This document shows, piece by piece, positions 29,568 to 64,000 of a DNA stretch of 64,000 nucleotides. Both the position numbers and the translations under genes were made by a program. The stretch comes from Siphonodentalium dalli. Taxonomy: Eukaryota; Mollusca; Scaphopoda; Gadilida; Siphonodentaliidae. The stretch lies in the NCBI GenBank assembly GCA_032622095.1, contig CP136069.1, positions 107,166,278-107,230,277 of the forward strand. Direction: 5' to 3'. Positions within the stretch are counted from its first letter, which is position 1, and every line of letters begins with the position of its first letter. The notes under the pieces are model-generated. The model was given only the letters and a program-made list of their open reading frames with translations, searched no databases and was not told the origin of the DNA.

Positions 29568-29571
29568 TTTT

Positions 29572-32145: not shown

Positions 32146-32146
32146 G

Positions 32147-32466: not shown

Positions 32467-32509
32467 GTTTACAGCACCCGAGATTCCCAGGCGGTCACCC
32501 ATCCAGGTA
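32467..32509 (-). pseudogene. 5S rRNA-like 3' end at the satellite border (q)
   Basis: 3' end and C box (GGATGGGTGACCGCC) of a 5S-like unit, the counterpart of copy d. It stops matching after AGGTA on the plus strand, where the 25-bp array begins. Confidence 0.85.
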
Positions 32510-33945
32510 TCACCAACACATACATATATAGGTATCCCCAACACATAAATATATAGGTATCCCCACCACATAAATATATAGGTATCTCCACCACAAACAT
32601 CTATAGGTATCCCCACCACATTCATATATAGGTATCCCCACCACATACATATATAGGTATCCCCACCACATACAAATATAGGTATCCCCACCACATACAT
32701 GTATAGGTATCCCCGCCACACACATATATAGGTATCCCCGCCACATACATATATAGGTATCCCCGCCATATACATATATAGGAATTCCCGCCACATACAC
32801 ATATAGGTATTCCCGAAAAACACATATACATGTATAGGTCTCCCCACCACACACATCTTTAGGTAACCCCACCACACACATATATAGGTATCCCCACCAC
32901 ACACATCTATAGGTATCCCCACCACACACATATATAGGTATCCCCACCACACACAGATATAGGTATCCCCATAACATACATATATAGGTATCCCCACCAC
33001 ATATATATATAGGTATCCTCACCACACACATATATATGTATTCCCACAACATACATATATAGGTCTCCCCACCACATACATATAGATGTATCCCCGCCAC
33101 ACACATCTATAGGTATCCCCACCACACACATATATAGGTATCCCCACTAAACACATCTATAGGTATCCCCACCACACACATCTATAGGTATCCCCACCAC
33201 ATACATATATAGGTATCCCCACCACATACATATATAGGTATCCCCTCCACACACATATATAGGTATCCCCACCACATACATATATAGGTATCCCCACCAC
33301 ATACATATATAGGTATCCCCACCGCATACATATATAGGTATCCCCACCACATACATCTATATGTATCCCCACCACACACATCTATAGGTATCCGCACCAC
33401 ATACATATATAGGTATCCCCGCCACATACATATATAGGTATCCCCACCACATACATATATAGGTATCCCCACCACACACATCTATAGGTTTCTCCACCAC
33501 AAACATCTATAGGTATCCCCACCACACACATATATAGGTATCCCCACCACACACATCTATAGGTATCCCCACCACACACATATATAGGTATGTCCAATAT
33601 ATACATATATAGGTATCCCCTCCACATACATATATAGGTATTCCCGCCACACAAATCTATATGTATCCCCACCACACACATATATAGGTATCACCACCAC
33701 ATACATATATAGGTATCCCCACCACATACATATATAGGTATCCCCACCACAGACATATATAGGTATCACCACCACACACATATATAGGTATCCCCGCCAC
33801 ATACATATATAGGTATCCCCGCCACTCACATATATAGGTCTCCCCACCACACACATCTATAGGTATCCCCACCACATACATCTATAAGTATCCCCACCAC
33901 ATACATATATAGGTATCCTCACCACACACATATATAGGTATCCCC

Positions 33946-36862
33946 ACCACATACATATATAGGTCTCCCCACCACACTCATATATAGGTAACCCCACCAC
34001 ACACATATATAGGTATCCCAGCCACACATATATATAGGTATCCCCACCACACACATCTATATGTATCCCCACCACACACATCTATATGTATCCCCACCAC
34101 ACACATCTATAGGTATCCCCAACACACACATCTATAGGTATCCCCCCACATAAATATATAGGTATCCCCACCACATACATATATAGGTATCCCCACCACA
34201 CACATATATAGGTATCCCCACCACATACCTATATAGGTATCCCCACCACATACATATATAGGTATCCCCACCACATACATATATAGGTATCCCCACCACA
34301 CACATCTATAGGTATCCCCGCCACATACATATATAGGTATCCCCACCACATACATATATAGGTATCCCCACCAAATACATATATAGGTATCCCCACCACA
34401 CACATATATATATCCCCGCCACACACATATATAGGTATCCCCACCACATACATATATAGGTCTCCCCACCACATACATCTATAGGTATCCCCACCACACA
34501 CATCTATAGGTATCCCAACCACACACATATATAGGTATCACCACCACATACATATATAGGTATCCCCGACACACACATATATAGGATCCCCGCCGCATAC
34601 ATATATGGGTATCCCCACCACACACATCTATAGGTATCCCCACCACATACATATATAGGTATCCCCACCACACACATATATAGGTATCCCCACCACACAC
34701 AACTATAGGTATCCCCACCACACACATATATAGGTATCACCACCACATACATATATAGGTATCCCCGCCACATACATATATAGGTATTCCCGCCACACAC
34801 ATCTATAGGTATCCCCACCACACACATATATAGGTATCACCACCACATACATATATAGGTATCCCCACCACATACATATATAGGTATCCCCACCACAGAC
34901 ATATATAGGTATCACCACCACACACATATATAGGTATCCCCGCCACATACATATATAGGTATCCCCGCCACACACATATATAGGTCTCCCCACCACACAC
35001 ATCTATAGGTATCCCCACCACATACATATATAAGTATCCCCACCACATACATATATAGGTATCCCCACCACACACATATATAGGTATCCCCACCACATAC
35101 ATATATAGGTCTCCCCACCACATACATATATAGGTATCCCCGCTACATACATATATAGGTATCCCCACCACATACATATATAGGTACCCCCGCTACATAC
35201 ATATTTAGGTATCCCCACCACACACATATATAGGTATCCCCGCCACATATATATATAGGTATCCCCACCACACTCATATATAGGTATCCCAACCACACAC
35301 ATATATAGGTATCCCAGCCACACACATCTATATGTATCCCCACCACACACATCTATATGTATCCCCAACACACACATCTATTTGTATCCCCACCACACAC
35401 ATCTATAGGTATCCCCTAACACACACATCTATAGGTATCCCCCACATACATATATAGGTATCCCCACCACATACATATATAGGTATCCCCACCAAATACA
35501 TATATAGGTATCCCCACCACACACATATATATAGGTATCCCCGCCACACACATATATAGGTATCCCCACCACATACATATATAGGTCTCCCCACCACCTA
35601 CATCTATAGGTATTCCCACCACACACATCTATAGGTATCCCCACCACACACATATATAGGTATCACCACCACATACATATATAGGTATCCCCGCCACACA
35701 CATATATTGGTATCCCCGCCACATACATATATGGGTATCCCCACCACACACATCTATAGGTATCCCCACCACATACATATATAGGTATCCCCCCACGTAC
35801 ATATAGGTATCCCACGACACACATATAGGTATCCCCACCACACACATCTATAGGTATCACCAACACATACATATATAGGTATCCCCAACACATACATATA
35901 TAGGTATCCCCACCACATAAATATATAGGTATCCCCACTACATACATATATAGGTATCCCCACCACAAACATCTATAGGTATCCCCACCACATAAATATA
36001 TAGGTATCCCCACGACATACATATATAGGTATCCCCACCACATACAAATATAGGTATCCCCACCACATACATGTATAAGTATTCCCGCCACACACATATA
36101 TAGGTATCCCCGCCACATACATATATAGGTATCCCCGCCACATACATATATAGGAATTCCCGCCATATACATATATAGGTATTCCCGCCAAACACATGTA
36201 TAGGTCTCCCCACCACACACACCTATAGGTATCCCCACCACACACATATATAGGTATCCCCACCACCACATACATATATAGGTAGCCCCACCACACACAT
36301 ATATAGGTATCGCCACCACATACATATATAGGTATCCCCGCCACATACATATATAGGTATCCCCGCCACACACATATATAGGTATCCCCACCACATACAT
36401 ATATAGGTATCCCCACCACACACATATATAGGTATCCCCACCACACACATATATATGTATCCCCGCCACACACATATATAGGTATCCCCACCCACACATC
36501 TATAGGTATCCTCTCCACACACATCTATTGGTATCCCCACCACATACATCTATAGGTATCCCCACCACACCCATATATAGGTATTCCCACCACATACATA
36601 TATAGGTATCACCACCACACACACATATAGGTATCCCCCAATTACATATATAGGTATCCCCACCACACACATATATAGGTATCACCGCCACATACATATA
36701 TAGGTATCCCCGCCACACACATATATAGGTCTCCACACCACACACATCTATAGGTATCCCCACCACATACATCTATAGGTATCACCACCACACACATATA
36801 TAGGTATCCCCACCACACACATATATAGGTATCCCCGCCACACACATATATAGGTATCACCG
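33946..36862. repeat. Higher-order repeat A, copy 1 (2,917 bp)
   Basis: Followed directly by copy 2 at an offset of 2,916-2,917 bp; unit variants and length variants match in order (for example 34107-34478 with 37023-37394, 35663-36499 with 38580-39416). Confidence 0.88.
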
Positions 36863-39779
36863 CCACATACATATATAGGTCTCCCCACCACACTCATATA
36901 TAGGTAACCCCACCACACACATATATAGGTATCCCAGCCACACATATATATAGGTATCCCCACCACACACATCTATATGTATCCCCACCACACACATCTA
37001 TATGTATCCCCACCACACACATCTATAGGTATCCCCAACACACACATCTATAGGTATCCCCCCACATAAATATATAGGTATCCCCACCACATACATATAT
37101 AGGTATCCCCACCACACACATATATAGGTATCCCCACCACATACCTATATAGGTATCCCCACCACATACATATATAGGTATCCCCACCACATACATATAT
37201 AGGTATCCCCACCACACACATCTATAGGTATCCCCGCCACATACATATATAGGTATCCCCACCACATACATATATAGGTATCCCCACCAAATACATATAT
37301 AGGTATCCCCACCACACACATATATATATCCCCGCCACACACATATATAGGTATCCCCACCACATACATATATAGGTCTCCCCACCACATACATCTATAG
37401 GTATCCCCACCACACACATCTATAGGTATCCCAACCACACACATATATAGGTATCACCACCACATACATATATAGGTATCCCCGACACACACATATATAG
37501 GTATCCCCGCCGCATACATATATGGGTATCCCCACCACACACATCTATAGGTATCCCCACCACATACATATATAGGTATCCCCACCACACACATATATAG
37601 GTATCCCCACCACACACAACTATAGGTATCCCCACCACACACATATATAGGTATCACCACCACATACATATATAGGTATCCCCGCCACATACATATATAG
37701 GTATTCCCGCCACACACATCTATAGGTATCCCCACCACACACATATATAGGTATCACCACCACATACATATATAGGTATCCCCACCACATACATATATAG
37801 GTATCCCCACCACAGACATATATAGGTATCACCACCACACACATATATAGGTATCCCCGCCACATACATATATAGGTATCCCCGCCACACACATATATAG
37901 GTCTCCCCACCACACACATCTATAGGTATCCCCACCACATACATATATAAGTATCCCCACCACATACATATATAGGTATCCCCACCACACACATATATAG
38001 GTATCCCCACCACATACATATATAGGTCTCCCCACCACATACATATATAGGTATCCCCGCTACATACATATATAGGTATCCCCACCACATACATATATAG
38101 GTACCCCCGCTACATACATATTTAGGTATCCCCACCACACACATATATAGGTATCCCCGCCACATATATATATAGGTATCCCCACCACACTCATATATAG
38201 GTATCCCAACCACACACATATATAGGTATCCCAGCCACACACATCTATATGTATCCCCACCACACACATCTATATGTATCCCCAACACACACATCTATAT
38301 GTATCCCCACCACACACATCTATAGGTATCCCCTAACACACACATCTATAGGTATCCCCCACATACATATATAGGTATCCCCACCACATACATATATAGG
38401 TATCCCCACCAAATACATATATAGGTATCCCCACCACACACATATATATAGGTATCCCCGCCACACACATATATAGGTATCCCCACCACATACATATATA
38501 GGTCTCCCCACCACCTACATCTATAGGTATCCCCACCACACACATCTATAGGTATCCCCACCACACACATATATAGGCATCACCACCACATACATATATA
38601 GGTATCCCCGCCACACACATATATTGGTATCCCCGCCACATACATATATGGGTATCCCCACCACACACATCTATAGGTATCCCCACCACATACATATATA
38701 GGTATCCCCCCACGTACATATAGGTATCCCACGACACACATATAGGTATCCCCACCACACACATCTATAGGTATCACCAACACATACATATATAGGTATC
38801 CCCAACACATACATATATAGGTATCCCCACCACATAAATATATAGGTATCCCCACTACATACATATATAGGTATCCCCACCACAAACATCTATAGGTATC
38901 CCCACCACATAAATATATAGGTATCCCCACGACATACATATATAGGTATCCCCACCACATACAAATATAGGTATCCCCACCACATACATGTATAAGTATT
39001 CCCGCCACACACATATATAGGTATCCCCGCCACATACATATATAGGTATCCCCGCCACATACATATATAGGAATTCCCGCCATATACATATATAGGTATT
39101 CCCGCCAAACACATGTATAGGTCTCCCCACCACACACACCTATAGGTATCCCCACCACACACATATATAGGTATCCCCACCACCACATACATATATAGGT
39201 AGCCCCACCACACACATATATAGGTATCGCCACCACATACATATATAGGTATCCCCGCCACATACATATATAGGTATCCCCGCCACACACATATATAGGT
39301 ATCCCCACCACATACATATATAGGTATTCCCACCACACACATATATAGGTATCCCCACCACACACATATATATGTATCCCCGCCACACACATATATAGGT
39401 ATCCCCACCCACACATCTATAGGTATCCTCTCCACACACATCTATTGGTATCCCCACCACATACATATATAGGTATCCCCACCACACCCATATATAGGTA
39501 TTCCCACCACATACATATATAGGTATCACCACCACACACACATATAGGTATCCCCCAATTACATATATAGGTATCCCCACCACACACATATATAGGTATC
39601 ATCGCCACATACATATATAGGTATCCCCGCCACACACATATATAGGTCTCCACACCACACACATCTATAGGTATCCCCACCACATACATCTATAGGTATC
39701 ACCACCACACACATATATAGGTATCCCCACCACACACATATATAGGTATCCCCGCCACACACATATATAGGTATCACCG
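36863..39779. repeat. Higher-order repeat A, copy 2
   Basis: Tandem duplicate of 33946-36862. Differences are few: single-base changes and a 1-bp length difference near 34580, where copy 1 reads TATAGGATCC and copy 2 TATAGGTATCC. Confidence 0.88.
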
Positions 39780-41980
39780 CCACATACATATATAGGTATC
39801 CCCGCCACACACATATATAGGTCTCCCCACCACATACATATATAGGTATCCCCGCCACACACATATATAGGTCTCCCCACCACACACATCTATAGGTATC
39901 CCAACCACATACATCTATAGGTTTCCACACCACATACATATATAGGTATCCTCACCACAAACATATATAGGTATCCCCACCACATACATATATAGGTCTC
40001 CCCACCACATACATATATAGGTATCCCCGCCACATACATATATAGGTATCCCCACCGCATACATATATAGGTATCCCCGCCACACACATATATATGTCTC
40101 CCCACCACACACATATATAGGTATCCCCGCCACACTCATATATAGTTATCCTCACCACACACATATATAGGTATCCCCGCCACATACATCTATAGGTATC
40201 CCCACCACATACATATATAGGTATCCCCACCACATACATATATAGGTATCCCCACCACATACATCTAAAGGTATCCCCACCACACACATATATAGGTATC
40301 CCCACCACACACATATATAAATATCACCACCACATACATATATAGGTATCCCCACCACATACATATATATGTATCCCCACCACACACATATATAGGTATT
40401 CCCACCACACACATCTATAGGTATCCCCACCACATACATATATAGGTATCCCCACCACACACATCTATATGTATCCCACCACACACATATATAGGTATCC
40501 CCACCACATACATATATAGGTATCCCCACCACATACATATATAGGTATCCCCACCACACACATATATAGGTATCCCCGCCACATACATATATAGGTATAC
40601 CCACCACACACATATATAGGTATCCCCACCACACACATATATATGTATCCCTGACACACACATATATAGGTATCCCCACACATACATACATAGGTATCCC
40701 CACCACACACATATATAGGTATCCCAACCACATACATATATAGATATCCCCACCACACACATATATAGGTATCCCCACCACATACATATATAGGTATCCC
40801 CACCACATACATATATAGGTATTCCCACCACATACATATATAGGTATCCCCTCCACATACATCTATAGGTATCCCCACCACACACATATATAGGTATCCG
40901 CACCACATACATATATAGGTATCCCCACCACATACATATATAGGTATCCCCACCACATACATATATAGGTATCCCCACCAAATACATATATAGGTATCCC
41001 CACCATACACATATATATAGGTATCCCCGCCACACACATATATAGGTATCCCCACCACATACATATATAGGTCTCCCCACCACATACATCTATAAGTATC
41101 CCCACCACACACATCTAAAGGTATCCCCACCACACACATCTATAGGTATCACCACCACATACATATATAGGTATCCCCGCCACACACATATATAGGTATC
41201 CCCGCCACATACATATATGGGTATCCCCACCACACACATATATAGGTATCCCCACCACATACATATATAGGTATCACCACCACATACATATATAGGTATC
41301 CCCACCACACACATATATAAGTATCCCCACCATATACATATATAGGTATCAGCACCACACACATATATAGGTCTCCCCACCACATACATATATAGGTATC
41401 CCCACCACACACATCTATAGGTATCCCCACCACATACATCTATAGTTATCCCCACCACATACATCTATAGGTATCACCACCACACACACATATAGGTATC
41501 CCCCCACGTACATATAGGTATCCCACCACACACATATAGGTATCCCCACCACACACATCTATAGGTATCGCCAACACATACATATATAGGTATCCCCAAC
41601 ACGTACATATATAGGTATTCCACCACACACAAATAGGTATCCCCACTACATACATATATAGGTATCCCCACCACAAACATCTATAGGTATCCCCACCACA
41701 TACATATATAGGTATCCCCACCACATACATATATAGGTATCCCCACCACACACAAATATAGGTATCCCCACCACATACATGTATAAGTATTCCCGCCACA
41801 CACATATATAGGTATCCCCGCCACATACATATATAGGTATCCCCGCCACATACATATATAGGAATTCCCGCCATATTCATATATAGGTATTCCCGCCAAA
41901 CACATATATAGGTCTCCCCACCACACACATCTATAGGTATCCCCACCACACACATATATAGGTATCCCCACCACACACAT
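39470..41980. repeat. Higher-order repeat D, copy 1
   Basis: Matched by 59530-62090 at offsets of 20,063, 20,013 and about 20,112 bp in successive parts; the steps are close to multiples of 25, as expected of unit gain and loss. Confidence 0.8.
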
Positions 41981-43475
41981 CTATAGGTATTCCCACCACA
42001 CACATATATAGGTATCCCCACCACATACAGATATAGGTATCCCCATAACATACATATATAGGTATCCCCACCACATACATATATAGGTAGCCCCACCACA
42101 CACATATATAGGTATCACCACCACATACATATATAGGTATCCCCGCCACATACATATATAGGTATCCCCGCCACACACATATATAGGTATCCCCACCACA
42201 TACATATATAGGTATCCCCACCACACACATATATAGGTATCCCCACCACACACATATATATGTATCCCCGCCACACACATATATAGGTATCCCCACCCAC
42301 ACATCTATAGGTATCCTCTCCACACACATCTATAGGTATCCCCACCACATACATCTTTAGGTATCCCCACCACACCCATATATAGGTATTCCCACCACAT
42401 ACATATATAGGTATCACCACCACACACACATATAGGTATCCCCCACATACATATATAGGTATCCCCACCACACACATATATAGGTATCACCGCCACATAC
42501 ATATATAGGTATCCCCGCCACACACATATATAGGTCTCCACACCACACACATCTATAGGTATCCCCACCACATACATCTATAGGTATCACCACCACACAC
42601 ATATATAGGTATCCCCACCACACACATATATAGGTATCCCCACCACACACATATATAGGTATCACCACCACATACATATATAGGTATCCCCACCACACAC
42701 ATATATAGGTCTCCCCACCACACACATCTATAGGTATCCCAACCACATACATCTATAGGTTTCCACACCACATACATATATAGGTATCCTCACCACAAAC
42801 ATATATAGGTATCCCCACCACATACATATATAGGTCTCCCCACCACATACATATATAGGTATCCCCGCCACATACATATATAGGTATCCCCACCGCATAC
42901 ATATATAGGTATCCCCGCCTCACACAAATATATGTCTCCTCACCACTCACATATATAGTTATCCCCGCCACACACTTATATAGTTATCCTCACAACACAC
43001 ATATATAGGTATCCCCGCCACATACATCTATAGGTATCCCCACCACATACATATATAGGTATCCCCACCACATACATATATAGCCTGGTATCACCGCCAC
43101 ATACATCTAAATGTACCCCCACCACACACATATATAGGTATCCCCACCACACACATATATAGGTATCACCACCACATACATATATAGGTATCCCCACCAC
43201 ATACATATATATGTATCCCCACCACACACATATATAGTTATTCCCACCACACACATCTATAGGTATCCCCACCACACACATATATAGGTATCCCCACCAC
43301 ACACATCTATATGTATCCCACCACACATTATATAGGTATCCCCACCACATACATATATAGGTATCCCCACCACATACATATATAGGTATCCCCACCACAC
43401 ACATATATAGGTATCCCCGCCACATACATATATAGGTATCCCCACCACACACATATATAGGTATCCCCACCACAC

Positions 43476-46400
43476 ACATATATATGTATCCCCGCCACTC
43501 ACATATATAGGTATCCCCACACATACATATATAGGTATCCCCACCACACACATATATAGGTATCCCCACCACACACATCTATTGGTATCCCCACCACACA
43601 CATATATAGTTATCCCCACCACATACATATATATGTATCCCCACCACATACATATATAGATATCCCCACCACACACATATATAGGTATCCCCACCACGTA
43701 CATATATAGGTATCCCCACCACATATATATATAGGTATTCCCACCACATACATATATAGGTATCCCCACCACATACATCTATAGGTATCCCCACCACACA
43801 CATCTATAGGTATCCGCACCACATACATATATAGGTATCCCCACCACATACATATATAGGTATCCCCACCACATACATATATAGGTATCCACACCAAATA
43901 CATATATAGGTATCCCCACCACACACATATATATAGGTATCCCCGCCACACACATATATAGGTATCCCCACCACATACATATATAGGTCTCCCCACCACA
44001 TACATCTATAGGTATCCCCACCACACACGTCTATAGGTATCCCCACCACACACATCTATAGGTATCACCACCACACACATATATAGGTATCCCCGCCACA
44101 CACATATATAGGTATCCCCGCCACACACATATATGGGTATCCCCACCACACACATCTATAGGTATACCCCCCACATACATATATAGGTATCACCACCACA
44201 TACATATATAGGTATCACCACCACACACATATATAAGTATCCCCACCATATACATATATAGGTATCAGCACCACACACATATATAGGTCTCCCCACCACA
44301 TACATATATAGTTATCCCCACCACACACATCTATAGGTATCCCCACCACATACATCTATAGTTATCCCCACCACACACATCTATAGGTATCCCCACCACA
44401 TACATCTATAGGTATCACCATCACACACACATATAGGTATCCCCCCACGTACATATATGTATCCCACCACACACATATAGGTATCCCCACCACACACATC
44501 TATAGGTATCACCAACACATACATATATAGGTATCCCCAACACGTACATATATAGGTATCCCACCACACACATATAGGTATCCCCACTACATGCATATAT
44601 AGGTATCCCCACCACAAACATCTATAGGTATCCCCACCACATACATATATAGGTATCTCCACCACATACATATATAGGTATCCCCACCACATACAAATAT
44701 AGGTATCCAACCACATACATGTATAAGTATTCCCGCCACATACATGTATAAGTATTCCCGCCACACACATATATAGGTATATCGCCACATACATATATAG
44801 GTATCCCCGCCACATAGATATATAGGAATTCCCGCCATATACATATATAGGTATTCCCGCCAAACACATATATAGGTCTCCCCACCACACACATCTATAG
44901 GTATCCCCACCACACACATATATAGGTATCCCCACCACACACATCTATAGGTATTACCACCACACACATATATAGGTATCCCCACCACATACAGATATAG
45001 GTATCCCCATAACATACATATATAGGTATCCCCACCACATACATATATAGGTAGCCCCACCACACACATATATAGGTATCACCACCACATACATATATAG
45101 TTATCCCCGCCACATACATATATAGGTATCCCCGCCACACACATATATAGGTATCCCCACCACATACATATATAGGTATCCCCACCACACACATATATAG
45201 GTATCCCCACCACACACATATATATGTATCCCCGCCACACACATATATAGGTATCCCCACCCACACATCTATAGGTATCCTCTCCACACACATATATAGG
45301 TATCCCCACCACATACATCTATAGGTATCCCCACCACACCCATATATAGGTATTCCTACCACATATATATATAGGTATCACCACCACACACACATATAGG
45401 TATCCCCCACATACATATATAGGTATCCCCACCACACACATATATAGGTATCAACGCCACATACATATATAGGTATCCCCGCCACACACATATATAGGTC
45501 TCCCCACCACACACATCTATAGGTATCCCCACCACATACATCTATAGGTATCCCCACCACATACATATATAGGTATCACCACCACACACATATATAGGTA
45601 TCCCCACCACACCCATATATAGGTATCCCCACCACACACATATATAGGTATCACCGCCACATACATATATAGGTATCCCCGCCACACACATATATAGGTC
45701 TCCCCACCAAACACATCTATAGGTATCCCAACCACATACATCTATAGGTTTCCACACCACATACATATATAGGTATCCTCACCACAAACATATATAGGTA
45801 TCCCCACCACATACATATATAGGTCTAACCACCACATACATATATAGGTATCCCCGCCACATACATATATAGGTATCCCCACCACATACATATATAGGTA
45901 TCCCCGCCACACACATATATATGTCTCCCCACCACACACATATATAGGTATCCCCGCCACACACATATATAGGTATCCTCACCACACACATATATAGGTA
46001 TCCCCGCCACATACATCTATAGGTATCCCCACCACATACATATATAGGTATCCCCACCACATACATATATAGGTATCTCCGCCACATACATCTATAGGTA
46101 TCCCCACCACACACATATATATGTATCCCCGCCACTCACATATATAGGTATCCCCACACATACATATATAGGTATCCCCACCACACACATATATAGGTAT
46201 CCCCACCACACACATCTATTGGTATCCCCCACACACACATATATAGGTATCCCCACCACATACATATATAGGTATCCCCACCACATACATATATAGATAT
46301 CCCCACCACACACATATATAGGTATCCCCACCACGTACATATATAGGTATCCCCACCACATACATATATAGGTATTCCCACCACATACACATATAGGTAT

Positions 46401-48050
46401 CCCCACCACATACATCTATAGGTATCCCCACCACACACATCTATAGGTATCCGCACCACATACATATATAGGTATCCCCACCACATACATATATAGGTAT
46501 CCCCACCACATACATATATAGGTATCCCCACCAAATACATATATAGGTATCCCCACCACACACATATATATAGGTATCCCCGCCACACACATATATAGGT
46601 ATCCCCACCACATACATATATAGGTCTCCCCACCACATACATCTATAGGTATCCCCACCACACACATCTATAGGTATCCCCACCACACACATCTATAGGT
46701 ATCACCACCACACACATATATAGGTATCCCCGCCACACACATATATAGGTATCCCCGCCACACACATATATGGGTATCCCCACCACACACATCTATAGGT
46801 ATACCCCCACATACATATATAGGTATCACCACCACATACATATATAGGTATCCCCACCACACACATATATAAGTATCCCCACCATATACATATATAGGTA
46901 TCAGCACCACACACATATATAGGTCTCCCCACCACATACATATATAGTTATCCCCACCACACACATCTATAAGTATCCCCACCACATACATCTATAGTTA
47001 TCCCCACCACACACATCTATAGGTATCCCCACCACATACATCTATAGGTATCACCACCACACACACATATAGGTATCCCCCCACGTACATATAGGTATCC
47101 CACCACACACATATAGGTATCCCCACCACACACATCTATAGGTATCACCAACACATACATATATAGGTATCCCCAACACGTTCATATATAGGTATCCCAC
47201 CACACACATATAGGTATCCCCACTACATACATATATAGGTATCCCCACCACAAACATCTATAGGTATCCCCACCACATACATATATAGGTATCCCCACCA
47301 CATACATATATAGGTATCCCCACCACATACAAATATAGGTATCCAACCACATACATGTATAAGTATTCCCGCCACATACATGTATAAGTATTCCCGCCAC
47401 ACACATATATAGGTATCCCCGCCACATACATATATAGGTATCCCCGCCACATAGATATATAGGAATTCCCGCCATATACATATATAGGTATTCCCGCCAA
47501 ACACATATATAGGTCTCCCCACCACACACATCTATAGGTATCCCCACCACACACATATATAGGTATCCCCACCACACACATCTATAGGTATTACCACCAC
47601 ACACATATATAGGTATCCCCACCACATACAGATATAGGTATCCCCATAACATACATATATAGGTATCCCCACCACATACATATATAGGTAGCCCCACCAC
47701 ATACATATATAGGTATTAGCCGCCACACACATATATAGGTATCCCCACCACATACATATATAGGTATCCCCACCACACACATATATAGGTATCCCCACCA
47801 CACACATATATATGTATCCCCGCCACACACATATATAGGTATCCCCACCCACACATCTATAGGTATCCTCTCCACACACATATATAGGTATCCCCACCAC
47901 ATACATCTATAGGTATCCCCACCACACCCATATATAGGTATTCCTACCACATACATATATAGGTATCACCACCACACACACATATAGGTATCCCCCACAT
48001 ACATATATAGGTATCCCCACCACACACATATATAGGTATCAACGCCACAT
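43476..48050. repeat. Higher-order repeat B, copy 1 (4,575 bp)
   Basis: 4,575 bp equals 183 x 25. Variant order is repeated by copy 2 (44381-44944 with 48956-49519, 46136-46642 with 50711-51217). Confidence 0.88.
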
Positions 48051-51000: not shown

Positions 51001-52625
51001 CCCCACCACACACATCTATAGGTATCCGCACCACATACATATATAGGTATCCCCACCACATACATATATAGGTATCCCCACCACATACATATATAGGTAT
51101 CCCCACCAAATACATATATAGGTATCCCCACCACACACATATATATAGGTATCCCCGCCACACACATATATAGGTATCCCCACCACATACATATATAGGT
51201 CTCCCCACCACATACATCTATAGGTATCCCCACCACACACATCTATAGGTATCCCCACCACACACATCTATAGGTATCACCACCACACACATATATAGGT
51301 ATCCCCGCCACACACATATATAGGTATCCCCGCCACACACATATATGGGTATCCCCACCACACACATCTATAGGTATACCCCCACATACATATATAGGTA
51401 TCACCACCACATACATATATAGGTATCCCCACCACACACATATATAAGTATCCCCACCATATACATATATAGGTATCAGCACCACACACATATATAGGTC
51501 TCCCCACCACATACATATATAGTTATCCCCACCACACACATCTATAAGTATCCCCACCACATACATCTATAGTTATCCCCACCACACACATCTATAGGTA
51601 TCCCCACCACATACATCTATAGGTATCACCACCACACACACATATAGGTATCCCCCCACGTACATATAGGTATCCCACCACACACATATAGGTATCCCCA
51701 CCACACACATCTATAGGTATCACCAACACATACATATATAGGTATCCCCAACACGTTCATATATAGGTATCCCACCACACACATATAGGTATCCCCACTA
51801 CATACATATATAGGTATCCCCACCACAAACATCTATAGGTATCCCCACCACATACATATATAGGTATCCCCACCACATACATATATAGGTATCCCCACCA
51901 CATACAAATATAGGTATCCAACCACATACATGTATAAGTATTCCCGCCACATACATGTATAAGTATTCCCGCCACACACATATATAGGTATCCCCGCCAC
52001 ATACATATATAGGTATCCCCGCCACATAGATATATAGGAATTCCCGCCATATACATATATAGGTATTCCCGCCAAACACATATATAGGTCTCCCCACCAC
52101 ACACATCTATAGGTATCCCCACCACACACATATATAGGTATCCCGACCACACACATCTATAGGTATTACCACCACACACATATATAGGTATCCCCACCAC
52201 ATACAGATATAGGTATCCCCATAACATACATATATAGGTATCCCCACCACATACATATATAGGTAGCCCCACCACATACATATATAGGTATTAGCCGCCA
52301 CACACATATATAGGTATCCCCACCACATACATATATAGGTATCCCCACCACACACATATATAGGTATCCCCACCACACACATATATATGTATCCCCGCCA
52401 CACACATATATAGGTATCCCCACCCACACATCTATAGGTATCCTCTCCACACACATATATAGGTATCCCCACCACATACATCTATAGGTATCCCCACCAC
52501 ACCCATATATAGGTATTCCTACCACATACATATATAGGTATCACCACCACACACACATATAGGTATCCCCCACATACATATATAGGTATCCCCACCACAC
52601 ACATATATAGGTATCAACGCCACAT
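48051..52625. repeat. Higher-order repeat B, copy 2
   Basis: Tandem duplicate of 43476-48050. The join near 48050 replaces the sequence expected after AACGCCACATACATATAT. Confidence 0.88.
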
Positions 52626-53378
52626 ACATATATAGGTATCCCCGCCACACACATATATAGTTCTCCCCACCACACACATCTATAGGTATCCCCACCACAT
52701 ACATCTATAGGTATCCCCACCACATACATATATAGGTATCACCACCACACACATATATAGGTATCCCCACCACACCCATATATAGGTATCCCCACCACAC
52801 ACATATATAGGTATCACCGCCACATACATATATAGGTATCCCCGCCACACACATATATATGTCTCCCCACCAAACACATCTATAGGTATACCAACCACAT
52901 ACATCTATAGGTTTCCACACCACATACATATATAGGCATCCCCACCACAAACATATATAGGTATCCCCACCACATACATATATAGGTCTAACCACCACAT
53001 ACATATATAGGTATCCCCGCCACATACATATATAGGTATCCCCACCACATACATATATAGGTATCCCCGCCACACACATATATATGTCTCCCCACCACAC
53101 ACATATATAGGTATCCCCGCCACACACATATATAGGTATCCTCACCACACACATATATAGGTATCCCCGCCACATACATCTATAGATATCCCCACCACAT
53201 ACATATATAGGTATCCCCACCACATACATATATAGGTATCTCCGCCACATACATCTAAAGGTATCCCCACCACACACATATATGGGTATCCCCACCACAC
53301 ACATATATAGGAATCACCACCACATACATACATAGGTATCCCCACCACTTACATATATATGTATCCCCACCACATACA

Positions 53379-55044
53379 TCTATAGGTATCCCCACCACAC
53401 ACATCTATAGGTATCCCCACCACATACATCTATAGGTATCACCACCACACACACATATAGGTACCCCCCCACGTACATATAGGTATCCCACCACACACAT
53501 ATAGGTATCCCCACCACACACATCTATAGGTATCACCAACACATACATATATAGGTATCCCCAACACATACATATATAGGTATCCCCACCACATAAATAT
53601 ATAGGTATCCCCACCACAAACATCTATAGGTATCCCCACCACATACATATATAGGTATCCCCACAACATACATATATAGGTATCCCCACCACATACAAAT
53701 ATAGGTATCCCCACCACATACATGTATAAGTATTCCCGCCACACACATATATAGGTATCCCCGCCACATACATATATAGGTATCCCCGCCACATACATAT
53801 ATATGAATTCCCGCCATATACATATATAGGTATTCCCGCCAAACACATATATAGGTCTCCCCACCACACACATCTATAGGTATCCCCACCACACACATAT
53901 ATCGGTATCCCCACCACACACATCTATAGGTATTCCCACCACACACATATATAGGTATCCCCACCACATACAGATATAGGTATCCCCATAACATACATAT
54001 ATAGGTATCCCCACCACATACATATATAGGTAGCCCCACCACACACATATATAGGTATCACCACCACATACATATATAGGTATCCCCGCCACATACATAT
54101 ATAGGTATCCCCGCCACACACATATATAGGTATCCCCACCACATACATATATAGGTATCCCCACCACACACATATATAGGTATCCCCACCACACACATAT
54201 TTATGTATCCCCGCCACACACATATATAGGTTTCCCCACCCACACATCTATAGGTATCCTCTCCACACACATCTATAGGTATCCCCACCACATACATCTA
54301 TAGGTATCCCCACCACACCCATATATAGGTATTCCCACCACATACATATATAGGTATCACCACCACACACACATATAGGTATGCCCCACATACATATATA
54401 GGTATCCCCACCACACACATATATAGGTATCACCGCCACATACATATATAGGTATCCCCGCCACACACATATATAGGTCTCCCCACCACACACATCTATA
54501 GGTATCCCCACCACATACATCTATAGGTATCCCCACCCCATACATATATAGGTATCACCACCACACACATATATAGGTATCCCCACCACACACATATATA
54601 GGTATCCCCACCACACACATATATAGGTATCACCGCCACATACATATATAGGTATCCCCGCCACACACATATATAGGTCTCCCCACCACACACATCTATA
54701 GGTATCCCAACCACATACATCTATAGGTTTCCACACCACATACATATATAGGTATCCCCACCACACAAATATATAGGTATCCCCACCACACACATCTATA
54801 GGTATCCCCACCACACACATCTATAGGTATCCCCACCACATACATATATAGGTATCCCCACCACATACATATATAGATATCCCCACCACACACATATATA
54901 GGTATCCCCACCACATACATATATAGGTATCCCCACCACATACATATATAGGTATTCCCACCACATACATATATATGTATCCCCACCACATACATATATA
55001 GGTATTCCCACCACATACATATATAGGTATCCCCACCACATACA
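53379..55044. repeat. Higher-order repeat C, copy 1 (1,666 bp)
   Basis: Matches 55045-56490 at an offset of 1,666 bp (53439-53873 with 55105-55539; 53533-54048 with 55199-55714). Confidence 0.85.
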
Positions 55045-56490
55045 TCTATAGGTATCCCCACCACACACATCTATAGGTATCCCCACCACATACATCTATA
55101 GGTATCACCACCACACACACATATAGGTACCCCCCCACGTACATATAGGTATCCCACCACACACATATAGGTATCCCCACCACACACATCTATAGGTATC
55201 ACCAACACATACATATATAGGTATCCCCAACACATACATATATAGGTATCCCCACCACATAAATATATAGGTATCCCCACCACAAACATCTATAGGTATC
55301 CCCACCACATACATATATAGGTATCCCCACCACATACATATATAGGTATCCCCACCACATACAAATATAGGTATCCCCACCACATACATGTATAAGTATT
55401 CCCGCCACACACATATATAGGTATCCCCGCCACATACATATATAGGTATCCCCGCCACATACATATATAGGAATTCCCGCCATATACATATATAGGTATT
55501 CCCGCCAAACACATATATAGGTCTCCCCACCACACACATCTATAGGTATCCCCACCACACACATATATCGGTATCCCCACCACACACATCTATAGGTATT
55601 CCCACCACACACATATATAGGTATCCCCACCACATACAGATATAGGTATCCCCATAACATACATATATAGGTATCCCCACCACATACATATATAGGTAGC
55701 CCCACCACACACATATATAGGTATCACCACCACATACATATATAGGTATCCCCGCCACATACATATATAGGTATCCCCGCCACACACATATATAGGTATC
55801 CCCACCACATACATATATAGGTATCCCTACCACACACATATATAGGTATCCCCACCACACACATATTTATGTATCCCCGCCACACACATATATAGGTTTC
55901 CCCACCCACACATCTATAGGTATCCTCTCCACACACATCTATAGGTATCCCCACCACATACATCTATAGGTATCCCCACCACACCCATATATAGGTATCC
56001 CCACCACATACATATATAGGTATCACCACCACACACACATATAGGTATGCCCCACATACATATATAGGTATCCCCACCACACACATATATAGGTATCACC
56101 GCCACATACATATATAGGTATCCCCGCCACACACATATATAGGTCTCCCCACCACACACATCTATAGGTATCCCCACCACATACATCTATAGGTATCCCC
56201 ACCCCATACATATATAGGTATCACCACCACACACATATATAGGTATCCCCACCACACACATATATAGGTATCCCCACCACACACATATATAGGTATCACC
56301 GCCACATATATATATAGGTATCCCCGCCACACACATATATAGGTCTCCCCACCACACACATCTATAGGTATCCCAACCACACACATATATAGGTTTCCAC
56401 ACCACATACATATATAGGTATCCCCACCACACACATATATAGGTATCCCCACCACACACATCTATAGGTATCCCCACCACACACATCTAT
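55045..56490. repeat. Higher-order repeat C, copy 2 (partial)
   Basis: Tandem duplicate of repeat C; similarity is lost after about 56490. Confidence 0.82.
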
Positions 56491-59400
56491 AGGTATCCGC
56501 ACCACATACATATATAGGTATCCCCACCACATACATATATAGGTATCCCCACCACATACATATATAGGTATCCCCACCAAATACATATATAGGTAGCCCC
56601 ACCACACACATATATATAGGTATCCCCGCCACACACATATATAGGTATCCCCACCACATACATATATAGGTCTCCCCACAACATACATCTATATGTATCC
56701 CCACGACACACATCTATAGGTATCCCCACCACACACATATATAGGTATCACCACCACATACATATATGGGTATCCCCGCCACACACATATATAGGTATCC
56801 CCGCCACATACATATATGGGTATCCCCACCACACACATCTATAGGTATCCCCACCACATACATATATAGGTATCACCACCACATACATATATAGGTATCC
56901 CCACCACACACATATATAAGTATCCCAACCATATACATATATAGGTATCAGCACCACACACATATATAGGTCTCCCCACCACATACATATATAGGTATCC
57001 CCACCACACACATCTATAGGTATCCCCACCACATACATCTATAGTTATCCCCACCACACACATATATAGGTATCCCAACACATACATCTATAGGTTTCCA
57101 CACCACATACATATATAGGTATCCTCACCACAAACATATATAGGTATCCCCACCACATACATATATAGGTCTCCCCACCACATACATATATAGGTATCCC
57201 CGCCACATACATATATAGGTATCCCCACCGCATACATATATAGGTATCCCCGCCACACACATATATATGTCTCCCCACCACACACATATATAGGTATCCC
57301 CGCCACACAAATATATAGTTATCCTCACCACACACATATATAGGTATCCCCGCCACATACATCTATAGGTATCCCCACCACATATATATATAGGTATCCC
57401 CACCACATACATATATATGTATCACCACCACATACATATATAGGTATCCCCACCACATACATATATATGTATCCCCACCACACACATATATAGGTATCCC
57501 CACCACACACATCTATATGTATCCCACCACGCACATATATAGGTATCCCCACCACATACATATATAGGTATCCCCACCACATACATATATAGGTATCCCC
57601 ACCACACACATATATAGGTATCCCAGCCACATACATATATAGGTATCCCCACCACACACATATATAGGTATCCCCACCACACACATATATATGTATCCCC
57701 GCCACACACATATATAGGTATCCCCACACATACATATATAGGTATCCCCACCACACACATATATAGGTATCCCCACCACACACATCTATAGGTATCCCCA
57801 CCACACACATCTATAGGTATCCCCACCACATACATATATAGGTATCCCCACCACATACATATATAGATATCCCCACCACACACATATATAGGTATCCCCA
57901 CCACATACATATATAGGTATCCCCACCACATACATATATAGGTATTCCCACCACATACATATATATGTATCCCCACCACATACATCTATAGGTATCCCCA
58001 CCACACACATCTATAGGTATCCGCACCACATACATATATAGGTATCCCCACCACATACATATATAGGTATCCCCACCACATACATATATAGGTATCCCCA
58101 CCAAATACATATATAGGTATCCCCACCACACACATATATATAGGTATCCCCGCCACACACATATATAGGTATCCCCACCACATACATATATAGGTCACCC
58201 CACCACATACATATATAGGTATCCCCACCACACACATCTATAGGTATCCCCACCACATACATATATAGGTATCACCACCACATACATATATAGGTATCCC
58301 CACCACACACATATATAAGTATCCCAACCATATACATATATAGGTATCAGCACCACACACATATATAGGTCTACCCACCACATACATATATAGGTATCCC
58401 CACCACACACATCTATAGGTATTCCCACCACATACATCTATAGTTATCCCCACCACACACATCTATAGGTATCCCCACCACATACATCTATAGGTATCAC
58501 CACCACACACACATATAGGTATCCCCCCACGTACATATAGGTATCCCACCACACACATATAGGTATCCCCACCACACACATCTATAGGTATCACCAACAC
58601 ATACATATATAGGTATCCCCAACACATACATATATAGGTATCCCCACCACATAAATCTATAGGTATCCCCACTACATACATATATAGGTATCCCCACCAC
58701 AAACATCTATAGGTATCCCCACCACATACATATATAGGTATCCCCACCACATACATATATAGGTATCCCCACCACATACAAATATAGGTATCCCCACCAC
58801 ATACATGTATAAGTATTCCCGCCACACACATATATAGGTATCCCCGCCACATACATATATAGGTATCCCCGCCACATACATATATAGGAATTCCCGCCAT
58901 ATACATATATAGGTATTCCCGCCAAACACATATATAGGTCTCCCCACCACACACATCTATAGGTATCCCCACCACACACATATATAGGTATCCCCACCAC
59001 ACACATCTATAGGTATTCCCACCACATACATATATAGGTATCCCCACCACAAACATATATAGTTATCCTCACCACACACATATATAGGTATCATCACCAC
59101 ATACATATATAGGTCTCCCCACCACAAACATATATAGGTATCCCCGCCACATACATGTTGAGGTATCCCCGCCACACACATATATAGGTATCCCCACACA
59201 TACATATATAGGTACCCCACCACACACATATATAGGTATCCCCACCACACACATCTATAGGTATCCCCACCACACACATCTATAGGTATCCCCACCACAT
59301 ACATATATAGGTATCCCCACCACATACATATATAGATATCCCCACCACACACATATATATGTATCCCCACCACATACATATATAGGTATCCCCACCACAT

Positions 59401-59529
59401 ACATAAATAGGTATTCCCACCACATACATATATAGGTATCCCCACCACATACATCTATAGGTATCCCCACCACACACATCTATAGGTATCCGCACCACAT
59501 ACATATATATGTATCCCCACCACATACAT

Positions 59530-62090
59530 ATATAGGTATCCCCACCACACACATCTTTAGGTATCCCCACCACATACATATAAAGGTATCACCACCACAC
59601 ACACATATAGGTATCCCCCAATTACATATATAGGTATCCCCACCACACACATATATAGGTATCACCGCCACATACATATATAGGTATCCCCGCCACACAC
59701 ATATATAGGTCTCCACACCACACACATCTATAGGTATCCCCACCACATACATCTATAGGTATCACCACCACACACATATATAGGTATCCCCACCACACAC
59801 ATATATAGGTATCCCCACCACACACATATATAGGTATCACTGCCACATACATATATAGGTATCCCCGCCACACACATATATAGGTCTCCCCACCACACAC
59901 ATCTATAGGTATCCCAACCACATACATCTATAGGTTTCCACACCACATACATATATAGGTATCCTCACCACAAACATATATAGGTATCCCCACCACATAC
60001 ATATATAGGTCTCCCCACCACATACATATATAGGTATCCCCGCCACATACATATATAGGTATCCCCACCGTATACATATATATGTATCCCCGCCACACAC
60101 ATATATATGTCTCCCCACCACACACATATATAGGTATCCCCGCCACACTCATATATAGTTATCCTCACCACACACATATATAGGTATCCCCGCCACATAC
60201 ATCTATAGGTATCCCCACCACATACATATATAGGTATCCCCACCACATACATATATAGGTATCCCCACCACATACATCTAAAGGTATCTCCACCACACAC
60301 ATATATAGGTATCCCCACCACACACATATATAAATATCACCACCACATACATATATAGGTATCCCCACCACATACATATATATGTATCCCCACCACACAC
60401 ATATATAGGTATTCCCACCACACACATCTATAGGTATCCCCACCACATACATATATAGGTATCCCCACCACACACATCTATATGTATCCCACCACACACA
60501 TATATAGGTATCCCCACCACATACATATATAGGTATCCCCACCACATACATATATAGGTTTCCCCACCACACACATATATAGGTATCCCCGCCACATACA
60601 TATATAGGTATACCCACCACACACATATATAGGTATCCCCACCACACACATATATATGTATCCCTGACACACACATATATATGTATCCCTGACACACACA
60701 TATATAGGTATCCCCACACATACATACATAGGTATCCCCACCACACACATATATAGGTATCCCAACCACATACATATATAGATATCCCCACCACACACAT
60801 ATATAGGTATCCCCACCACATACATATATAGGTATCCCCACCACATACATATATATGTATTCCCACCACATACATATATAGGTATCCCCACCACATACAT
60901 CTATAGGTATCCCCACCACACACATATATAGGTATCCGCACCACATACATATATAGGTATCCCCACCACATACATATATAGGTATCCCCACCACATACAT
61001 ATATAGGTATCCCCACCAAATACATATATAGGTATCCCCACAATACACATATATATAGGTATCCCCGCCACACACATATATAGGTATCCCCACCACATAC
61101 ATATATAGGTCTCCCCACCACATACATCTATAGGTATCCCCACCACACACATCTATAGGTATCCCCACCACACACATCTATAGGTATCACCACCACATAC
61201 ATATATAGGTATCCCCGCCACACACATATATAGGTATCCCCGCCACATACATATATGGGTATCCCCACCACACACATCTATAGGTATCCCCACCACATAC
61301 ATATATAGGTATCACCACCACATACATATATAGGTATCCCCACCATACACATATATAAGTATCCCCACCATATACATATATAGGTATCAGCACCACACAC
61401 ATATATAGGTCTCCCCACCACATACATATATAGGTACACCAACACACACATCTATAGGTATCCCCACCACATACATCTATAGTTATCCCCACCACATACA
61501 TCTATAGGTATCACCACCACACACACATATAGGTATCCCCCCACGTACATATAGGTATCCCACCACACACATATAGGTATCCCCACCACACACATCTATA
61601 GGTATCACCAACACATACATATATAGGTATCCCCAACACGTACATATATAGGTATCCCACCACACACAAATAGGTATCCCCACTACATACATATATAGGT
61701 TTCCCCACCACACACATATATAGGTATCCCCGCCACATACATATATAGGTATACCCACCACACACATATATAGGTATCCCCATCACAAACATCTATAGGT
61801 ATCCCCACCACATACATATATAGGTATCCCCACCACATACATATATAGGTATCCCCACCACATACAAATATAGGTATCCCCACCACATACATGTATAAGT
61901 ATTCCCGCCACACACATATATAGGTATCCCCGCCACATACATATATAGGTATCCCCGCCACATACATATATAGGAATTCCCGCCATATTCATAAATAGGT
62001 ATTCCCGCCAAACACATATATAGGTCTCCCCACCACACACATCTATAGGTATCCCCACCACACACATATATAGGTATCCCCACCACACAA
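59530..62090. repeat. Higher-order repeat D, copy 2
   Basis: Counterpart of 39470-41980 (for example 59965-60327 with 39952-40314). Confidence 0.8.
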
Positions 62091-64000
62091 ATCTATATGT
62101 ATCCCCACCACACACATATATAGATATCACCACCACATACATATATAGGTATCCCCACCACATACATATATAGGTATCCCCACCACAGACATATATAGGT
62201 ATCACCACCACACACATATATAGGTATCCCCGCCACATACATATATAGGTATCCCCGCCACACACATATATAGGTCTCCCCACCACACACATCTATAGGT
62301 ATCCCCACCACATACATCTATAAGTATCCCCACCACATACATATATAGGTATCCTCACCACACACATATATAGGTATCCCCACCACATACATATATAGGT
62401 CTCCCCACCACACTCATATATAGGTAACCCCACCACACACATATATAGGTATCCCAGCCACACATATATATAGGTATCCCCACCACACACATCTATATGT
62501 ATCCCCACCACACACATCTATATGTATCCCCACCACACACATCTATAGGTATCCCCAACACACACATCTATAGGTATCCCCCCACATAAATATATAGGTA
62601 TCCCCACCACATACATATATAGGTATCCCCACCACACACATATATAGGTATCCCCACCACATACCTATATAGGTATCCCCACCACATACATATATAGGTA
62701 TCCCCACCACATACATATATAGGTATCCCCACCACACACATCTATAGGTATCCCCGCCACATACATATATAGGTATCCCCACCACATACATATCTAGGTA
62801 TCCCCACCAAATACATATATAGGTATCCCCACCACACACATATATATATCCCCGCCACACACATATATAGGTATCCCCACCACATACATATATAGGTCTC
62901 CCCACCACATACATCTATAGGTATCCCCACCACACACATCTATAGGTATCCCAACCACACACATATATAAGTATCACCACCACATACATATATAGGTATC
63001 CCCGCCACACACATATATAGGTATCCCCGCCGCATACATATATGGGTATCCCCACCACACACATCTATAGGTATCCCCACCACATACATATATAGGTATC
63101 CCCACCACACACATATATAGGTATCCCCACCACACACAACTATAGGTATCCCCACCACACACATATATAGGTATCACCACCACATACATATATAGGTATC
63201 CCCGCCACATACATATATAGGTATTCCCGCCACACACATCTATAGGTATCCCCACCACACACATATATAGGTATCACCACCACATACATATATAGGTATC
63301 CCCACCACATACATATATAGGTATCCCCACCACAGACATATATAGGTATCACCACCACACACATATATAGGTATCCCCGCCACATACATATATAGGTATC
63401 CCCGCCACACACATATATAGGTCTCCCCACCACACACATCTATAGGTATCCCCACCACATACATATATAAGTATCCCCACCACATACATATATAGGTATC
63501 CCCACCACACACATATATAGGTATCCCCACCACATACATATATAGGTCTCCCCACCACATACATATATAGGTATCCCCGCTACATACATATATAGGTATC
63601 CCCACCACATACATATATAGGTATCCCCGCTACATACATATTTAGGTATCCCCACCACACACATATATAGGTATCCCCGCCACATATATATATAGGTATC
63701 CCCACCACACTCATATATAGGTATCCCAACCACACACATATATAGGTATCCCAGCCACACACATCTATATGTATCCCCACCACACACATCTATATGTATC
63801 CCCAACACACACATCTATATGTATCCCCACCACACACATCTATAGGTATCCCCTAACACACACATCTATAGGTACCCCCCACATACATATATAGGTATCC
63901 CCACCACATACATATATAGGTATCCCCACCAAATACATATATAGGTATCCCCACCACACACATATATATAGGTATCCCCGCCACACACATATATAGGTAT
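62075..64000. repeat. Higher-order repeat A, third partial copy
   Basis: Matches about 33640-35564 at an offset of 28,436-28,437 (for example 62543-62914 with 34107-34478; 63240-63614 with 34803-35177). It runs to the window edge. Confidence 0.85.

Follow-up and report, generated by a model that had tools for sequence, protein, structure and literature searches.

A 25-bp satellite array of Siphonodentalium dalli as a probable stretch of the genome's main (peri)centromeric satellite

The window, by which we mean the whole 64,000-bp stretch of DNA analysed here, lies on C9, a 214.9-Mb contig of the Siphonodentalium dalli assembly. As shown in Table 1, its left half belongs to a 40.5-kb island (C9:107158290-107198781) that interrupts the satellite block and consists of retroelement sequence, the pol fragments of which we take to be Ty3/Gypsy-like, and of 5S sequence, mostly degraded. 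Within the 5S-bearing repeats, Rfam 5S matches were found on the minus strand at 18222-19035 and 29571-30701, and copies of the LTR-like repeat elsewhere (91-99%) are often paired ~5 or 7.6-7.9 kb apart. Retroelement and 5S-derived sequence surrounds a satellite with a 25-bp unit, which fills the right half of the window. Tandem Repeats Finder, one of the checks proposed with the original prediction, reported one array of period 25 with 1264.2 copies and 88% matches, and wrap-around alignment resolved it into units of which 1,164 of 1,265 are exactly 25 bp long. Because no unit is longer than 31 bp, the array in the window holds no foreign insertion, in agreement with the predicted ~31.5 kb of ~1,260 uninterrupted units, and the variation predicted at mainly three positions was concentrated at positions 11 (A/G), 17 (T/C) and 22 (A/C). 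The predicted limits required correction: the array starts at 32505 and not at 32510, and it does not stop with the window, continuing to a 100-N gap for a total of 57.6 kb. Literature searches with pieces of the unit returned no match.

Table 1. Features of the window and regions of the 25-bp satellite on other contigs (positions refer to the window unless a contig is named)
Feature	Position	Strand	Remarks
Retroelement pol fragments of the island	1308..11566	-	integrase 1308-1976; RNase H 4117-4779; reverse transcriptase + RNase H 9977-11566
5S-bearing repeats	17471..31340	.	two duplicated stretches ~12.3-12.6 kb apart
LTR-like dispersed repeat, ~700 bp	31438..32140	.	seemingly single here
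Degraded 5S-derived repeat, 177-bp period	32146..32485	-	abuts array; Rfam 5S match 32289-32391, 68.5 bits
Junction of 5S copy and first satellite unit	32460..32530	+	AGGTA common to both; pattern also on C1 (two), C2 (two), C3
25-bp satellite array, consensus AGGTATCCCCACCACATACATATAT	32505..64000, on to C9:107256338	+	1,265 units in window; Tandem Repeats Finder, wrap-around alignment
Family A, two adjacent copies, 2,916/2,917 bp	33947..39797 (33947-36880 and 36863-39797)	+	99.7-100% identity
Family B, two adjacent copies, 4,575 bp	43476..52634 (43476-48059 and 48051-52634)	+	99.85% identity
Family C, two copies, 1,666-bp spacing	53361..56498 (53361-54832 and 55027-56498)	+	1,472 bp aligned, 99.5%
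Family D, segment repeated ~20 kb downstream	39830..41398 and 59843-61436	+	shifts 20,013/20,038 bp; 99.1-99.5%
C1 region	167.7-172.5 of 276.9 Mb		spans 4.8 Mb
C2 main region	39.6-40.7 of 234.9 Mb
C3 main region	134.8-135.0 of 301.4 Mb
C5 region	129.3-130.6 of 264.3 Mb		two stretches 1.2 Mb apart
C6 region	123.0-123.3 of 233.5 Mb
C8 region	0.2-0.75 of 189.9 Mb		near contig end

A coding reading of the array was rejected: open frames on the minus strand reach at most 378 codons in the 57.6-kb array, compared with 307-504 codons when the window's units are shuffled into arrays of 31.5 kb, so the unit by itself accounts for the long open frames. Pairing is possible at the unit boundary (ATATATAGGTAT with ATACATATAT, loop CCCCACCAC), and a hairpin or dyad was likewise rejected as a functional motif, only two of six folded 150-base stretches giving z < -2; the stem is broken by the variable positions 17 and 22, and C17 always lacks a partner because none of 1,164 units has G at position 5. 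The CENP-B box is a 17-bp motif in the monomer of CENP-B-box satellites; searching both strands of the 57.6-kb array for it gave no match.

We compared the C9 array with itself and found that duplication of multi-kilobase blocks has happened repeatedly inside it. Segment pairs of ≥500 bp and ≥97% identity number 74 in the 57.6 kb and cover 74% of it; five shuffled orders of the 1,265 window units, 31.5 kb long rather than 57.6 kb, contained none. All four higher-order families of the original prediction are present at their spacings of 2,917, 4,575, 1,666 and ~20,000 bp. Families A, B and C consist of two adjacent copies each, together with partial copies tens of kilobases off (for family A, at shifts of 25,520, 28,437 and 33,774), the 4,575-bp unit of family B holds inner shifts of 2,637 + 1,938 bp = 4,575, and the remainder is a mosaic of shifted duplications, with longer ones at shifts of 25.5 and 30.8 kb. 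C9, the one array analysed in this way, therefore lacks the many near-identical head-to-tail copies of an alpha-satellite-like regular higher-order array: its "higher-order repeats" amount to irregular, few-copy duplications rather than a regular unit present in many copies. The remark made with the prediction, that 25 bp is short for multi-kilobase higher-order structure, was a fair one, and it meets here a structure of irregular few-copy duplication.

The array is part of a long tandem block of the kind expected of centromeric satellite DNA, which can reach megabase size. The C9 block measures ~1.1 Mb and lies at 49.4-49.9% of the contig; satellite was found at 25 of 27 points sampled in C9:106.15-107.256 Mb (four of them set deliberately to bracket the non-satellite point at 106.5 Mb, none falling in the known 40.5-kb island) and at none of 14 points around the block. 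Near C9:106.495-106.500 the block has another, short stretch without satellite. Genome-wide, 6,066 exact two-unit matches were counted, against 0 for the reversed pattern. Calibration on 100.5 kb of array read (118 such matches) gives ~5.2 Mb of satellite and calibration on C9 by itself (77 matches in 57.6 kb) gives 4.5 Mb, i.e. an estimated 4.5-5.2 Mb, or ~0.2%, of the 2.23-Gb genome.

Seven of the nine contigs (C1, C2, C3, C5, C6, C8 and C9) carry this satellite, each mainly in a single region, which is the distribution of one main site per chromosome that is expected of centromeric satellite DNA; the exceptions are a second C2 block at 84.5-84.9 Mb, 44 Mb from the main block and in the opposite orientation, and a small patch on C3 at 0.51 Mb. 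Two long exact patterns gave 45 and 18 matches (both lists complete), of which 60 of 63 fell in the main regions and 3 in the second C2 block. The main regions are internal on six of the seven contigs and near the middle on C3, C5, C6 and C9, which is not the distribution of a subtelomeric satellite, as only the C8 region and the C3 patch lie toward contig ends. The regions are not solid: satellite was present at 6/9 points on C2:39.55-40.75 Mb, 4/7 on C8, 1/3 around the C3 region and 0/2 between the two C5 stretches. C4 and C7 had none of the 63 long-pattern matches, no satellite at 20 points sampled at their ends, and no place among the 100 of 193 edge-pattern matches listed (complete for 0-1 mismatch, n = 49; those with two mismatches reach C3). 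They were also absent from the candidates scored in two DNA queries (40 of 3,047 and 40 of 2,597), which do not show absence from C4 and C7 because C8 is missing from the scored candidates too. The arrays of these two chromosomes may be missing from the assembly, or other DNA may take their place there; C4 carries a different satellite of its own, with a 229-bp unit.

Some array segments and edges are common to several chromosomes far beyond chance. We compared C9 with loci on C1, C2, C3 and C6 that were selected for bearing the junction or matching C9, and with a C5 locus picked by consensus pattern only. Of 5,111 100-mers in the C1 array, 1,433 occur in the C9 array, as do 1,699 of 7,540 in the C6 array, against 73-133 and 87-163, respectively, in shuffled C9. 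Exchange between chromosomes is not general, however, since C5 shares no more 100-mers with C9 (52) than chance provides (10-74). Most 500-bp tiles of C9 find their best match within C9, with a median of 99.4% compared with 92.0-94.2% for matches to the other loci, where the sequence read was far shorter. Counting from the edge, bases 50-1450 of the C1a, C2 and C3 arrays are 98-100% alike per 200 bp, apart from one C2-C3 comparison at 86%. The presence of the 5S/satellite junction on four contigs (C1, C2, C3 and C9) shows that such blocks were copied, edges included, between non-homologous chromosomes; C5, C6 and C8 gave no zero-mismatch match to this edge. An origin of the unit from 5S was considered but is not favoured: by eye, AGGTA is all that the 5S sequence and the satellite unit have in common at the junction.

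From these sequence data we consider that the array is probably a stretch of the genome's main (peri)centromeric satellite, shaped by unequal exchange. The satellite regions would then mark candidate primary constrictions and would act as heterochromatin and/or a kinetochore platform; given that there is no CENP-B box and that compensating changes do not preserve the unit's weak hairpin, such a platform would work through chromatin (CenH3, heterochromatin) and not through a protein-binding motif. Of the two options in the original prediction, the chromosome-structural satellite is the one supported by the megabase block, the mostly internal regions on seven of nine contigs and the segments shared between chromosomes. 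The other, an expanding minisatellite at a single locus, would suit a 25-bp unit with irregular local duplications, but minisatellites (VNTRs), as characterized in the part of PMC8122249 cited here, are arrays of ~0.5-30 kb in euchromatin, and a satellite of 4.5-5.2 Mb by estimate, spread over seven contigs with a megabase block and segments shared between chromosomes, rules it out unless the assembly is wrong throughout. Errors of assembly behind part of the fine structure (the duplications, the second C2 block, the C3 patch and the end position on C8) are a real, though minor, possibility: the array stops at a 100-N gap, a CCCTAA array among the matches listed lies ~0.6 Mb from the right end of C1 and is oriented as an inverted terminal piece would be, and the opposite orientation of the C2 blocks is expected from a wrongly turned 44-Mb piece. 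Against this, the window is free of N, the satellite recurs on many contigs, and the duplicates in the window are not plain doubled reads, because the copies differ by a few bases (e.g. 99.85% over 4,584 bp).

Two further readings concern what the satellite would do. It might be a non-centromeric, knob-like heterochromatic satellite that by chance occurs once on most chromosomes. The C8 region near a contig end, the two C2 blocks, the second small C3 patch and the lack of matches on C4 and C7 in the searches described above would fit, but six of seven main regions being internal, four of them near the middle, and C4 bearing another satellite instead make this quite improbable. Alternatively, the satellite might be pericentromeric heterochromatin only, with the kinetochore on embedded islands of complex DNA (retroelements, 5S-derived repeats); in Drosophila, kinetochores lie on islands of complex DNA within satellite. 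The C9 island would be such a case, as it and both its junctions are free of N and satellite in the same orientation lies on either side, and both the second non-satellite stretch in the block and the recurrence of the exact 5S edge (C1, two; C2, two; C3; C9) point the same way. This reading seems rather unlikely to us, as the exact edge was not found on three of the contigs and the LTR-like repeat (31438-32140) has copies scattered over chromosome arms. Somewhat less likely still is a scenario of centromeres in turnover, in which seven chromosomes would share the 25-bp satellite with 5S-junction edges copied between non-homologous centromeres, C4 would have swapped to its 229-bp satellite, and kinetochores would possibly sit, Drosophila-like, on retroelement/5S islands within the 25-bp blocks.

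To our knowledge, centromere DNA has been mapped in few mollusc species. Read as (peri)centromeric satellite, the regions give seven chromosomes of a 2.2-Gb mollusc genome candidate centromere positions that are precise and testable, with C4 and its different satellite as a comparison case for centromere turnover. The part of Melters et al. 2013 (PMC4053949) on which we draw covers animal and plant centromeric tandem repeats, with higher-order structure in many species and no conserved length, GC content or motif; like those repeats, the present satellite forms long tandem arrays, whereas its higher-order copies are few and irregular. As stated there, the Sanger/PacBio read pipeline left out units <50 bp, so a 25-bp unit would be missed by it, and yet a unit below this cut-off here bears multi-kilobase duplications. 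Human satellites I, II and III are, in the cited part of PMC8122249, pericentric short-unit arrays, and satellite I has a 25-bp component, a likeness of description; here, in contrast, the blocks read on seven contigs are built from a single 25-bp unit. In the mollusc Crassostrea gigas, for which PMC7348941 gives CenH3 ChIP, Cg170 is reported among the CenH3-associated DNA; it occupies the primary constrictions of several chromosomes and is also interspersed along the arms, being the central part of a Helitron, whereas the 25-bp satellite is largely confined to a single region of a contig and no element from which it could stem was found. As far as the account of PMC11121367 cited here extends, PcH-sat of the limpet Patella caerulea (2n = 18) is pericentromeric, mainly on chromosome pairs 2 and 4-7, and the present candidate resembles it as a mollusc (peri)centromeric satellite found mainly on some chromosomes; PcH-sat differs in having a 179-bp unit with a SINE-like segment and in making up ~10% of its genome, compared with 25 bp and ~0.2% here.

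The 25-bp satellite array in the window is one run of units without foreign insertion, as the original prediction had it, and its variation falls mostly at positions 11, 17 and 22 of the unit. Among the 1,164 units whose length is exactly 25 bp, position 11 is A in 911 and G in 238, position 17 is T in 592 and C in 545, and position 22 is A in 887 and C in 262; these per-position base counts bear out the proposal of three variable positions per unit. The window spans C9:107166278-107230277, and the array continues past it to C9:107256338, where it meets a 100-N gap (C1 to C9 are the nine contigs of the assembly, 2,226,750,531 bases in total).

Coordinates of the satellite array and the adjoining island (bare positions count within the window)
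Feature	Coordinates	Extent	Relation to window
25-bp satellite array	32505 to window end (64000)	1,265 units	
Island	C9:107158290-107198781	40.5 kb	Window's first 32.5 kb are part of the island

We next considered the higher-order structure of the array, for which four repeat families, A to D, had been proposed at spacings of 2,917, 4,575, 1,666 and ∼20,000 bp, all of which are present. Families A, B and C each consist of two adjacent copies with 99.5–100% identity, spaced by 2,916/2,917, 4,575 and 1,666 bp, respectively, and shifts of 2,637 and 1,938 bp occur inside family B. When the whole 57.6-kb C9 array was analyzed, we also detected duplications shifted by 25.5 and 30.8 kb, and 74% of its length lies under at least one copy (at least 500 bp and at least 97%); in the shuffled control, none of five random reorderings of the 1,265 units in the window yielded such a pair. 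Because adjacent units are hardly closer to each other than random unit pairs (90.2% versus 89.3% alike), duplication took place mainly in blocks of units. Overall, the structure is what unequal exchange or amplification of blocks would produce. A regular alpha-satellite-like unit was rejected for the C9 array, given its two-copy families plus scattered shifted duplications.

The C9 satellite block extends over ∼1.1 Mb at 49.4–49.9% of the 214.9-Mb contig. Satellite was found at 25 of 27 points sampled in C9:106.15-107.256 Mb (four of them placed deliberately around a non-satellite point at 106.5 Mb and none within the 40.5-kb island) and at none of 14 points beyond this interval. The island, which consists of retroelement fragments, duplicated stretches and 5S rDNA-derived (5S) repeats, is flanked on its left by satellite in the same orientation as the window array, and no N occurs in it or at either satellite junction. 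Its left part also contains ∼122-bp repeats (C9:107162557-107164290). Within the window, we note a distinct short tandem array, with 11 copies of a 15-bp unit (2672-2839), a direct duplication with 682-bp spacing, next to a retroelement pol frame, in which a 135-aa frame occurs twice in identical form (12107-13198), and a GC-rich (0.60) stretch with open frames on both strands (19001-20000), in which the only frame tested (19380-19970, minus strand) had no Pfam match. A 164/67-bp tandem repeat occurs near the C9 block (positions 9375-10000 of L003, one stretch of assembly DNA read, and C9:107600001) and at the start of C7.

The distribution of the satellite was then determined genome-wide. An exact two-unit pattern gave 6,066 matches and its reversed control none, corresponding to an estimated ∼5.2 Mb of satellite when calibrated on 118 matches in 100.5 kb of array, or 4.5 Mb when calibrated on C9 alone (77 in 57.6 kb). 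A five-unit pattern had 45 matches (C1 14, C2 12, C3 2, C5 1, C6 1, C8 5 and C9 10) and a second long pattern 18 (C1 6, C2 9, C5 1 and C9 2); of the 63 in total, 60 map to the main 25-bp satellite region of their own contig (main region), and the other three to a second C2 block (C2:84.56-84.84 Mb). Among the matches listed, a C9-derived DNA query found C1, C2, C3, C6 and C9 (40 of 3,047 candidates scored), and a C5-derived query found C1, C2, C3, C5, C6 and C9 (40 of 2,597 scored); both matched the same regions as the long patterns, and C8 was among the matches listed by neither. With an edge pattern (at most two mismatches), 99 of the 100 matches listed, of 193, fall in main or second-block regions; this pattern brought in an extra stretch, C5:130.50-130.57 Mb, and one listed match, at C3:514895, where a sample was confirmed as satellite (C3:514801-515100). 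The relative positions are 61–62% on C1, 17% on C2 (second block, 36%), 45% on C3, 49% on C5, 53% on C6, 0.1–0.4% on C8 and 49–50% on C9. The regions are not filled throughout with satellite, which was present at six of nine points sampled in C2:39.55-40.75 Mb, at three of five in C2:84.5-84.9 Mb, at one of three around the C3 main region, at neither of two between the two C5 stretches and at four of seven in C8:0.2-0.9 Mb.

The two C2 blocks lie 44 Mb apart in opposite orientation, a layout that either a wrongly turned piece or a genuine inversion broken within the satellite would give. On C1, among the matches listed, a long CCCTAA array begins at C1:276277300, ∼0.6 Mb before the right end (276873094), and its orientation is that expected of an inverted terminal piece. 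Because a gap terminates the window array, the C2 blocks are opposed and the C1 CCCTAA array is internal, positions on C2, C3 (0.51 Mb) and C8 are less sure. Arrays of (TTAGGG)n are also present in the assembly, and C8:1-4000, where the sequence includes 1,500 N, contains histone H1-like reading frames. A 5S and an H1 sequence of the assembly appear molluscan.

Evidence of exchange between chromosomes came from the array edges. The pattern joining 5S to the first satellite unit has seven matches: two on C1, two on C2, one each on C3 and C9, and one at C2:177.9 Mb, which lies inside a homogeneous 5S array where one base change suffices. Four junctions (two on C1, one on C2 and that on C3) are identical across the 180 bases compared, and the C9 junction diverges from them beyond the first few units. 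Over array bases 50–1450 from the edge, C1a (with C1b, one of two C1 array loci with this junction), C2 and C3 are mutually 98–100% alike per 200 bp, except for one C2-C3 window at 86%; C9 resembles C1a, C1b and C3 for approximately the first 250 array bases and is 86–96% alike beyond. Further, 100-mers common to the C9 array and other loci were compared with C9 arrays shuffled as pieces cut at AGGTATC: 1,433/5,111 for C1a (73–133 shuffled), 1,150/4,946 for C1b (23–80), 741/6,775 for C2 (28–110), 683/4,599 for C3 (11–82) and 1,699/7,540 for C6 (87–163), with C5 at chance (52/8,616 versus 10–74). C1a, C1b, C2 and C3 were chosen by junction, C6 by its C9 match and only C5 irrespective of C9; therefore, the shared sequence demonstrates copying of some blocks, together with their edges, between non-homologous chromosomes, and generality beyond the chosen loci is not implied. 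Most C9 tiles have their best match within C9 (median 99.4% versus 92.0–94.2% elsewhere), in an uneven comparison of 57.6 kb of C9 with only 5–10 kb of each other locus. The homogeneous 5S rDNA array (C2:177899001-177905000; 194-bp period, ∼27 copies) is probably a functional 5S locus. Its copies score 96.3–113.9 bits, with 13 sharing the top score and one more cut by the stretch end, compared with 41.7–99.0 bits in the window and beside the arrays, so most of the latter copies are degraded, though not clearly all.

Two parts of the mechanism are demonstrated, the duplication of blocks inside the C9 array and the presence of common blocks and edges on several chromosomes; the satellite regions are probably the centromere regions. 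Because the 57.6-kb C9 array has no CENP-B box, the hairpin that the unit might form is not preserved and the open frames are accounted for by the unit itself (a coding reading of the array was rejected on this ground), the satellite, if it acts, most likely does so by supporting CenH3 chromatin and heterochromatin as a platform rather than by carrying a binding motif. CenH3 may reside on either the satellite or the islands. In oyster, CenH3-associated DNA is described as heterogeneous, with Cg170 interspersed along arms as well (PMC7348941). Six pieces of the 25-bp unit, on both strands, have no occurrence in the open-licence PMC texts searched. The Sanger/PacBio pipeline described for a 282-species survey of centromere repeats left out units of <50 bp, and among the 171 species for which that survey had Sanger data, 76 showed higher-order structure (PMC4053949). 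Human satellite I is described as including a 25-bp component (PMC8122249), and nine haploid chromosomes are published for molluscs (PMC11121367, PMC10379862, PMC12005716).

C4 and C7 had no match with the long patterns, the DNA queries (40 candidates scored in each) or the listed edge-pattern matches, and satellite was found at 0 of 20 points sampled at their ends; an equal share would be ∼7 of the 63 matches each, assuming the same mix of variants. The start of C4, as read over C4:1-3000, carries a 229-bp satellite, present at four of five points sampled in the first 0.8 Mb. With a 458-bp query of it (38 of 543 candidates scored), all matches listed are on C4, from its first base to 1.75 Mb (C4:1-1750469), and are 93–100% alike, with none listed on other contigs. 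This repeat may be the centromeric satellite of C4 or a subtelomeric satellite.
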